Assembly: GCA_018813815.1 (NCBI GenBank)
Contig: JAHJAY010000035.1
Coordinates: forward strand, 1-46,127
DNA: 46,127 bases
Direction: 5' to 3'
Source: Patescibacteria group bacterium
Lineage (GTDB): Bacteria > Patescibacteriota > Microgenomatia > UBA1400 > JAHJAY01
The notes below the pieces were generated by a model. That model was not told where the DNA came from. It was given only the letters and a program-made list of their open reading frames with translations, and searched no databases. How positions within the stretch are numbered: position 1 is the first letter of the stretch; the number at the start of each line of letters is the position of its first letter. A program made the translations under genes and the position numbers. Shown here one piece after another: positions 31,499 through 36,704 of this stretch.

Positions 31499-31572
31499 GC
31501 TCGCGTAGCTCAGTTGGTTAGAGCACCAATCTTATAAGTTGGGGGCCCCTGGTTCGAGTCCAGGCGCGAGCA
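31499..31572 (+). tRNA. tRNA-Ile (anticodon UAU)
   Basis: GCTCGCG/CGCGAGC acceptor, D-arm GCTCAGTTGGTTAGAGC, anticodon loop CTTATAA, T-arm CCTGG-TTCGAGT-CCAGG; CCA not encoded. Confidence 0.93.
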
Positions 31573-31577
31573 CTTGA

Positions 31578-34202: not shown

Positions 34203-34862
34203 ATGAGCCTGAACAAGAAAACGCTGTCTTTTATTAAAAGGATGTATCCATCGGTTGATAAGACCGTTTTTAAACCTTTTATTACTGTTTCCCGTGAGGC
34301 TGGCAGTGGCGGACGGCCGATTGCCCGTTTATTGGCTAAAGAGCTGGGATTTGATTTTTATGATGAACATTTGGTAGATTTAACGGCCGGTAAATTAAAA
34401 AAAAGACGAGAATTAGTAGCTTCTTTAGATGAACAGCAGCAGGGAATAATGCAGGGCATCATTGCCTTGTTGACTGATACCGGGCTTTCCAAAGACAAAT
34501 ATATTCATGGTTTATGTGAAGTGATAGTTAGCTTGGCTCAAAAAGGCAATTGTGTGATTTTGGGTCGGGGAGCTAATTTTATTACTCCTTTTGGAGAGGG
34601 GCTTCATGTTAGAGTAATTGCTCCTTTTTTGACCCGAGTAGGCTACACAGCTTCATACGAAGGTTATTCAAAGTATGAAGCCAATCAGCGAGTGCGCCAT
34701 TTTGACCGCGAGCGCAAAGAGTTTATTAAACGTTATTTTAGTAAAAATCCTTCCAATACCAATTACTACGATTTAACGATTAATACTGCTTATTTTAATA
34801 TTGAACAGGCAGTAAAAGTTATTTTGAAAGCATATAAGCGAAAGTTTAAGAAAAGAAAGTAG
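34203..34862 (+). CDS. Cytidylate kinase-like family protein
   Basis: ITVSREAGSGGRPIARLLAKELGFDFYDEHLV, VILGRGANFI, YYDLTINTAYF. Confidence 0.85.
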   Translation: MSLNKKTLSFIKRMYPSVDKTVFKPFITVSREAGSGGRPIARLLAKELGFDFYDEHLVDLTAGKLKKRRELVASLDEQQQGIMQGIIALLTDTGLSKDKYIHGLCEVIVSLAQKGNCVILGRGANFITPFGEGLHVRVIAPFLTRVGYTASYEGYSKYEANQRVRHFDRERKEFIKRYFSKNPSNTNYYDLTINTAYFNIEQAVKVILKAYKRKFKKRK

Positions 34863-34933
34863 CAGGGGTGGGAGTCGAACCCACGACCTCCGGTTTATGA
34901 ATCCGGTGCTCTAACCAACTGAGCCACCCTGCC
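34860..34933 (-). tRNA. tRNA-Met (anticodon CAU), elongator-like
   Basis: Minus strand GGCAGGG-TG-GCTCAGTTGGTTAGAGC-A-CCGGATTCATAAACCGG-AGGTC-GTGGGTTCGACTCCCAC-CCCTGCT-A. Confidence 0.9.
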
Positions 34934-34974: not shown

Positions 34975-35047
34975 TAGCGGGTCCAGGGTAACGCTCCCTG
35001 GTTAAGTGAGGTTATGAGCCTCACGAGATACTTACCTCCCACCCGCA
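34975..35047 (-). ncRNA. tRNA-like cloverleaf with CAU anticodon loop and initiator-like features, non-canonical D- and T-loops
   Basis: Minus strand T-GCGGGT-GG-GAGGTAAGTATCTC-G-TGAGGCTCATAACCTCA-CTTAA-CCAGGGAGCGTTACCCTGG-ACCCGC-T-A; all four stems form. Confidence 0.65.
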
Positions 35048-35061
35048 ACGTTAATAGGGTT

Positions 35062-35090
35062 ATTTTACTAAACTTGCCTTACAGATTCAA
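35062..35090 (-). promoter_or_regulatory. Promoter TTGAAT-17-TAAAAT reading into the tRNA-like gene and tRNA-Met
   Basis: ATTTTA at 35062-35067 and ATTCAA at 35085-35090 on +. Confidence 0.6.
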
Positions 35091-35105: not shown

Positions 35106-35286
35106 ATTTATTGAAAACTTAATAAAGGCGTTTGTACCGAGCAAGGTTGGGGCTCGGAAGCCATCTGAAGGAAATGTCAGATCGGGTAAGCCCGTAACAG
35201 CTGGAACGAGATATTCGCCAATCGGGGGATAACTTAAGGTGGTACCGCGGAGCTTTTCGCCCTTAGAAAAGCAAGGCGGTTTTTTT
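35106..35286 (+). promoter_or_regulatory. T-box leader, probable Trp specifier (UGG at 35202-35204)
   Basis: T-box core AAGGTGGTACCGCGG (35236-35250), competing terminator, located upstream of trpS; CTGGAACG on the 3' side of stem I. Confidence 0.85.
35245..35286 (+). terminator. T-box-controlled intrinsic terminator
   Basis: CCGC...GCTTTTC-GCCCTTA-GAAAAGC...GCGG then TTTTTTT. Confidence 0.85.
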
Positions 35287-35319
35287 ATGGCCATTAAATT
35301 TTAAAATAGAAAGGTAATT

Positions 35320-36348
35320 ATGAAAAAAGATTATACGATTTTAACCGGCATTACGCCGTCGGGGAGCGGCGAGGTTCATATTGGTAATTATTTAGGTACA
35401 GTTGTGCCTTTTCTAGACATGGCCAAAAAAGCCCGACAGGTTTATTTTTTTATTGCTGATTTGCATGCTTTGAGTACGGTTCAGAATAAAGAAGAACTCC
35501 AGCGCAATGTTGAAAACCTGGTTTTATCATACTTGGCTTTTGGTATTGACACTAATAAGATTATTTTTTATCGCCAGTCAGACATTCCCCTACATACTGA
35601 ATTACAAAATATTTTAAACAATGTTACTCCGATAGGTTTGATTAAGCGCTGTCATGCTTATAAAGATAAGCTTCAAAAAGGTTTTGATCCGGAAAGGGTC
35701 AACATGGGCCTTTTTAGTTATCCGATTTTAATGGCCGCTGACATTGTGATGTATGATCCGGATTATATTCCTGTTGGTGAAGATCAAAAACAGCATATTG
35801 AGGTTACTCGAGACATTGCCGGCTATTTTAACAAAACTTTTGGCCAGACTTTTAAACTGCCGGATATTTACAACATTAAAGAAACCGCTCGTTTGATCGG
35901 CACTGATGGCAAGCGGAAAATGAGTAAAAGTTTAAATAATTACATTTCGGTTTTCGGGGATGAAATGACAATTAAAAAGCAAATTATGGCGTGTTTCACT
36001 GATCCTAATCGGCTTCATCCAACTGATCCCGGCCAGATAAAAGGCAACCCGATATTTATCTATCATGATTTATTAAATGAAGATAAAAAAGAAGTTGAGG
36101 GGTTAAAAAAACGCTATCAGGACGGCAGAGTTGGTGATGTTGAGGTAAAAGAAAAATTGTTTAAGGTTTTGCTAAAGAAATTTACTGTTGAAAGAAAGCG
36201 CTACCAGCAGTTAAAAAAGAATCCTGAAAAAATAAGAAAGATTTTGGCAGAAGGCGCTCAACAAGCCAGAAAAGTGGCAGTTAAAAAGATGATGTTGGTG
36301 CGCCAAGAAATCGGCATCACCAATCAGTATTCATTTTTCAAATACTAG
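35320..36348 (+). CDS. trpS: Tryptophanyl-tRNA synthetase
   Basis: GITPSGSGEVHIGNYLG (HIGH-like), GTDGKRKMSKSLNN (KMSKS), GEDQKQHIEVTRDIA. Confidence 0.95.
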   Translation: MKKDYTILTGITPSGSGEVHIGNYLGTVVPFLDMAKKARQVYFFIADLHALSTVQNKEELQRNVENLVLSYLAFGIDTNKIIFYRQSDIPLHTELQNILNNVTPIGLIKRCHAYKDKLQKGFDPERVNMGLFSYPILMAADIVMYDPDYIPVGEDQKQHIEVTRDIAGYFNKTFGQTFKLPDIYNIKETARLIGTDGKRKMSKSLNNYISVFGDEMTIKKQIMACFTDPNRLHPTDPGQIKGNPIFIYHDLLNEDKKEVEGLKKRYQDGRVGDVEVKEKLFKVLLKKFTVERKRYQQLKKNPEKIRKILAEGAQQARKVAVKKMMLVRQEIGITNQYSFFKY

Positions 36349-36374: not shown

Positions 36375-36704
36375 ATGAAGCCAACAATTGATTTTAAGGA
36401 TTTTACTAAACTTGATTTGCGGTTGGCTAAAATTGTTAAGGCCGAGATGGTTGAAGAAGCAGACAAGTTGTTAAAAATAACTTTAGATGTTGGCGAGTTG
36501 GGCGAGCGAGTAGTGGTGGCCGGAATTAGGGAATGGTATAAGCCGGAAGATTTAGCGGGCAAATTGGTAGTTTATTTGGTTAACTTAGAGCCAAAGAATA
36601 TTCGCGGCATTGAAAGCCAGGGAATGATTGTGGCCGCCGGCAAAGATGAAGCTGTGCTTTTACACCCGGATAGAAAAATTAAACCAGGAGAAATCGTAAG
36701 ATGA
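36375..36704 (+). CDS. tRNA-binding domain protein (MetRS beta / Trbp111-like)
   Basis: IDFKDFTKLDLRLAKIVKAEMVEEADKLLKITLDVG, IRGIESQGMIVAA. Confidence 0.9.
   Translation: MKPTIDFKDFTKLDLRLAKIVKAEMVEEADKLLKITLDVGELGERVVVAGIREWYKPEDLAGKLVVYLVNLEPKNIRGIESQGMIVAAGKDEAVLLHPDRKIKPGEIVR

Follow-up and report, generated by a model that had tools for sequence, protein, structure and literature searches.

The window analysed here, a stretch of 46,127 nucleotides from a Patescibacteria group bacterium (class Microgenomatia; contig JAHJAY010000035.1), carries on its minus strand at positions 34975-35047 a tRNA-like element of 73 nt with the anticodon CAU and with D- and T-loops that depart from the canonical tRNA form. 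The element folds into a full cloverleaf with a minimum free energy of -33.4 kcal/mol (z -3.76); the mean of 200 shuffled sequences was -22.2 kcal/mol, and none of them reached as low a value. A -10-like box is found approximately 15-25 nt upstream of the element in most relatives as well, and the elongator tRNA-Met(CAU) that lies 41 nt downstream is probably co-transcribed with it. The CCA end is not encoded, the next letters being CAA. The locus comprises the following features:

34975-35047, minus strand: predicted initiator tRNA-fMet(CAU) with an altered elbow, 73 nt from position 1 to the discriminator A73 (fold, covariation, model R1)
35014-35016, minus strand: anticodon CAU within the loop CUCAUAA (sequence; splice junctions of relatives)
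35029-35034, minus strand: D-loop UAAGUA, with A18 at 35032 and G19 at 35031 (alignment; genome G002, which has the canonical UCGGUA)
34989-34995, minus strand: T-loop AGCGUUA on a 6-bp T-stem, with G55 at 34994 and C56 at 34993 (alignment, G002, 18/55 covariation)
35062-35090, minus strand: sigma-70-like promoter TTGAAT-17-TAAAAT upstream of the element
34859-34933, minus strand: canonical elongator tRNA-Met(CAU) (ARAGORN; Rfam tRNA model RF00005, 70.1 bits)

An earlier note on this DNA had described the coordinates, strand and cloverleaf, the CAU in its CUCAUAA loop, a promoter of the element's own and the 41-nt gap to the tRNA-Met, all of which we found as described. The standard finders overlook the element: ARAGORN reported only tRNA-Ile(UAU) at 31499-31573 and the tRNA-Met(CAU) in the window, and RF00005 (cut-off 29 bits) yielded no match at the element even at E<=5.

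With the bacterial initiator tRNA-fMet the element shares CAU in CUCAUAA, G30:C40 and G31:C39, purine11:pyrimidine24, an unpaired or weak 1:72, A73 and the GCGGG acceptor core, and it occurs once per genome here; the earlier note was correct on the two G:C pairs, on 11:24 and on the acceptor core. The third pair, 29:41, is A:U, and the three consecutive G:C pairs 29-31:39-41 typical of initiators are therefore incomplete. This rule is typical and not strictly defining, and some accepted bacterial initiators deviate from it. Most Microgenomatia initiators, and most of the aligned relatives, also depart from it by G31.U39 in place of G31:C39, the window copy having G:C. A strong Watson-Crick pair at 1:72 is absent from the element and its relatives. 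The U:U at this position, which had been taken as an initiator hallmark, is present but peculiar to this genome: the bacterial initiator has C:A, and among the relatives U1:A72 occurs in 12 rows of the alignment and A1:U72 in 6, a weak covarying pair. U1-A72 represents a known minor initiator class (PMC5143459). Unlike the bacterial initiator tRNA-fMet, the element has A18, G55, A54, U58, G8, U14, a 6-bp T-stem and the A:U pair at 29:41. It would be a bacterial initiator tRNA by function that falls outside the canonical-elbow definition at positions 18, 55, 54 and 58.

The register of the altered loops is fixed by the complete genome G002, since its copy shares the body of the element (G8 G9, the variable loop CTTAA, the 6-bp T-stem and an insert in the anticodon loop) but has the canonical loops UCGGUA and UUCAACU, the latter being the counterpart of AGCGUUA. 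Read in this way, the D-loop UAAGUA is U14 A15 A18 G19 U20 A21 and the T-loop AGCGUUA is A54 G55 C56 G57 U58 U59 A60. Compared with the canonical elbow, G19:C56 is kept, whereas G18:U55 has become A18:G55 and U54:A58 has become A54:U58. Moreover, G8 and U14 stand in place of U8:A14 in the window's subgroup, and most sampled Collierbacteria have G54 with G58. The earlier note had offered two readings of the T-arm; because G002 has 6 bp and TTCAACT in the same frame, the reading with 6 bp and the 7-nt loop AGCGTTA stands and the one with 5 bp falls. Its statement that both elbow partners are lacking holds for G18 and U55, which are changed, but not for G19 and C56, which are invariant in all 20 aligned relatives. 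A Watson-Crick kissing interaction between GUAA of the D-loop and UUAC of the T-loop, apparent in the window's genome, is not kept in relatives with GGCGGAA and was rejected.

Positions 18 and 55 were then surveyed across 289 genomes of the class and 294 of the phylum with a pattern that leaves both free. The script searched the D-loop for a purine directly before a G, and the list was supplemented with a few sequences from other searches. The 178 distinct family-sequence pairs, which represent 82 families, comprise 113 with G18-U55, 6 with G18-C55 and 59 with A18-G55, and the mixed states A18-U55 and G18-G55 did not occur (Fisher p ~1e-48, a value that ignores relatedness). By family, 52 have G/U only, 22 A/G only and 3 both. 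In family f95, one A/G and one G/U sequence differ at just four positions, including 18 and 55, which indicates that the pair switched in place. All G18 sequences have U:A at 54:58; with A18/G55 this position is U:A, C:A, A:U, G:G or rarer. Sequence covariation establishes that 18 and 55 were replaced in matched fashion.

The A18/G55 state also appears to occur on possible phages of the candidate phyla radiation (CPR). Two putative phage contigs from IMG/VR carry an initiator-like tRNA with the D-loop UAAGUA and the T-loop UGCGAUU; one contig (L168, 1..3820) has at least 20 tRNA genes, in an array that includes the initiator-like copy, and the other (L169, 1..1098) has 7. One phage row, read as A18/G55 by eye, was left out of the count since its T-stem end is off the pattern.

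The stems appear to be under selection in the relatives. Searched at the DNA level, 95 genomes of the order yielded the element in 21 (own genome included) belonging to several families, five of them other than the window's own, and the intact altered form is present among Collierbacteria, Beckwithbacteria, Woesebacteria and UBA1400. In 20 aligned sequences (19 distinct), 99.8% of the stem cells pair, and 11 of the 22 stem pairs, with all four helices represented, show changes on both sides, in line with the conservation and stem covariation that the earlier note had proposed to look for. When the partner columns were slid by one as a control, pairing fell to 48-57%. The altered D- and T-loops themselves are nearly invariant in this alignment. 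One further copy (G042; L118, G042:C45) is interrupted by a stretch of N immediately ahead of ATAATCC, and its form is not fully readable. The R1 match in G012, which lacks a cloverleaf and apparently lies within a coding stretch, and the matches L164 (Bacillota) and L165 (Desulfofustis), likewise without a cloverleaf, were discarded as chance.

A further check concerned a canonical tRNA-fMet elsewhere in the genome. Read from the search loci of this draft assembly, the genome holds 22 other tRNAs above the Rfam cut-off, among which there is no second initiator; the sole other CAU tRNA is the elongator tRNA-Met. As read by ARAGORN, all 22 are canonical in these loops, with GG (D-loop) and TTCRA (T-loop). 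Model R1 has a single match in the genome (98.4 bits), and across the order it finds, besides split copies, 17 intact ones scoring 90-102 bits, none of them accompanied by a second match in its genome. In most genomes of other families, R1 yields one match of 68-70 nt at ~30-44 bits, which is the conventional initiator; ARAGORN reads these as tRNA-Met(CAU), often within ~200 nt of the elongator tRNA-Met. Conventional initiators of the class (e.g. G028, G010) occupy the orthologous site near the elongator tRNA-Met and have the same acceptor and anticodon arms, but differ by G18G19 with TTCRA, U8 A9 and a 5-bp T-stem. Looking for CAU tRNAs whose T-loop is canonical, we recovered in family f11 the elongator together with the initiator in three of the four genomes tested and the initiator in the remaining one; in nine genomes that carry the altered form, the same search detected no initiator. 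A TTCRA-type initiator was found neither in the single-contig genome G011 nor in G005 (99% complete). An Fmt homologue is encoded in 8 of 8 genomes checked, and initiation with fMet is therefore expected. As a separate observation, no tRNA for Ser, Tyr, Phe, Trp, His, Asn or Gln exceeded the Rfam cut-off in the window's genome, a 94%-complete draft; these tRNAs may lie in gaps or hold introns.

In 5 of the 21 genomes with a match, only one or both halves of the element were detected, with the break in the anticodon loop. Joining U33 to C34 in silico yields the complete element, its CUCAUAA preserved, in four of the five; in the fifth (G059) the contig is cut short. Pairing of the 5' exon GAGGCU with an internal guide, for instance GGGUCUC, gives a P1 that ends in U.G. 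The inserts of G009 and G051 pass the Rfam threshold for group I introns, and those of G005, G016, G059, G029, G032 and G002 resemble them. Some relatives thus carry introns of the kind known from bacterial tRNA anticodon loops; unlike in other bacterial tRNAs, the host is an altered-elbow initiator and the site lies between U33 and C34. Such introns would fit a need for a mature anticodon loop.

Taken together, the element is almost certainly the only initiator tRNA-fMet of its genome, with an elbow, a joint that hardly varies throughout life, rebuilt by matched loop changes. Conservation, compensatory change, the anticodon-loop introns, orthology and the lack of any other initiator bear out the proposal of the earlier note that this is an initiator with stems under selection and a rewired elbow. 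Several points weigh on the other side. The initiator role is read from sequence, with transcript, charging and formylation predicted, and the direct contact of A18 with G55 in the folded molecule is inferred from covariation. The 18/55 count covers only initiators having C56 and GG-CUCAUAA. Furthermore, the assembly is a draft of 49 contigs, approximately 94% complete, and its U:U at 1:72 is unlike the relatives.

The earlier note had also considered a mitochondrial-style tRNA, in which D-loop and T-loop no longer touch and something else holds the fold together. This is very unlikely: positions 8, 14, 18, 54, 55 and 58 are indeed all non-standard in the subgroup, including G8 and U14 for U8:A14, but both arms are of full size (4-bp D-stem, 6-bp T-stem), G19 and C56 are invariant, and the phylum-wide covariation of 18 and 55 predicts a contact that is altered and kept, so that the elbow appears re-paired by A18:G55 and not lost. 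Highly improbable, too, is the reading in which an initiator gave rise to a tRNA-like regulatory or decoy RNA here and another locus of the genome encodes the true one. The non-canonical loops and the failure of ARAGORN and RF00005 to detect the element would suit it; however, no second initiator was found in any of the 17 genomes whose copy is intact, among them the single-contig G011, and all 17 would then be without an initiator tRNA, which leaves this suggestion of the earlier note unsupported. It is also at odds with the conventional orthologues that sister families carry at the corresponding place near tRNA-Met and with the introns between U33 and C34. The loss of GG from the D-loop and of TTC from the T-loop, together with the U:U at 1:72, might finally suggest a degenerating pseudogene, to which we assign next to no probability: the near-complete stem pairing among 19 distinct sequences, the compensatory changes at half of the pairs, the near-invariance of the new loops and the exchange of 18 and 55 together without exception refute it as far as comparative evidence goes.

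As an initiator, the element would be transcribed from its own promoter and trimmed, receive its CCA from the CCA-adding enzyme, be charged with Met by MetRS and formylated by Fmt, and then be placed in the ribosomal P site. In the elbow, the outer G19:C56 pair would be kept, offering RNase P and the ribosome a flat face for stacking, with an A18:G55 layer stacked beneath it; in the window's subgroup, A54:U58 would close the T-loop, accompanied by a T-stem longer by one base pair. The exposed G19:C56 face is a stacking surface for elbow-binding machinery (reviewed in PMC4810234), which would explain why this pair alone stays fixed. Loss of TruB, the Psi55 enzyme, was rejected as the cause: TruB is encoded in 15 of 49 A18/G55 genomes versus 17 of 39 G18/U55 genomes (Fisher p=0.27), and the window's own genome encodes it. 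Across Patescibacteria, 53 of 80 genomes had no TruB match; their other tRNAs probably keep U55.

Beyond the promoter region, on the opposite strand, lie three further features:

35122-35310, plus strand: T-box leader upstream of trpS (Rfam T-box 50.2 bits, E 5e-10, below the cut-off)
35320-36348, plus strand: trpS (PF00579)
36375-36704, plus strand: small protein with a tRNA-binding OB-fold domain (PF01588), directly after trpS and near the altered initiator

The leader has a very short Stem I with UGG in the hairpin loop AAGGUUGGG, likely the Trp specifier, and a terminator-like CCGC...GCGG-UUUUUUU follows. The PF01588 family includes Aquifex Trbp111, a reported tRNA binder.

Eukaryotic initiator tRNAs have an A1:U72 pair, and in their elbow only position 54 differs, U55 and G18 being kept. 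The element resembles them in its T-loop exception at 54 (A54 with A58 there; PMC7912444). It is also like tRNA-Pyl, which has a small D-loop without GG, a T-loop without U54-U55-C56 and, in the Desulfitobacterium type, G8 (PMC7609411). However, tRNA-Pyl lacks G19 and C56 and has another arm geometry and a CUA anticodon, whereas the element keeps G19:C56. In the literature searched, which left most subscription journals outside, we found no report of A18:G55 or of an altered-elbow initiator.

Pairs of the A18:G55 type may reportedly have turned up in selections on the D/T region of suppressor tRNAs. We tentatively propose, as a possibility that we regard as rather doubtful, that in Patescibacteria the initiator elbow alone was freed from the G18:Psi55 rule and switches between G18:U55 and A18:G55 as an initiator-specific signal, e.g. 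to avoid elongation factors or modification enzymes, or through a changed contact with the P site of the small CPR ribosome; the window's lineage, with U54:A58 replaced too, would be the extreme case. Since ARAGORN and the Rfam tRNA model miss the altered form, annotations of such genomes can wrongly suggest that the initiator is missing. Psi55 has been termed the most universally conserved tRNA modification (PMC7912444). In the initiator of a large bacterial group, G18:Psi55, among the most conserved tertiary contacts of tRNA, appears to have been replaced by matched substitutions while G19:C56 is untouched, which makes this group a natural double-mutant test of the requirements for a working elbow and of what initiators in particular tolerate.
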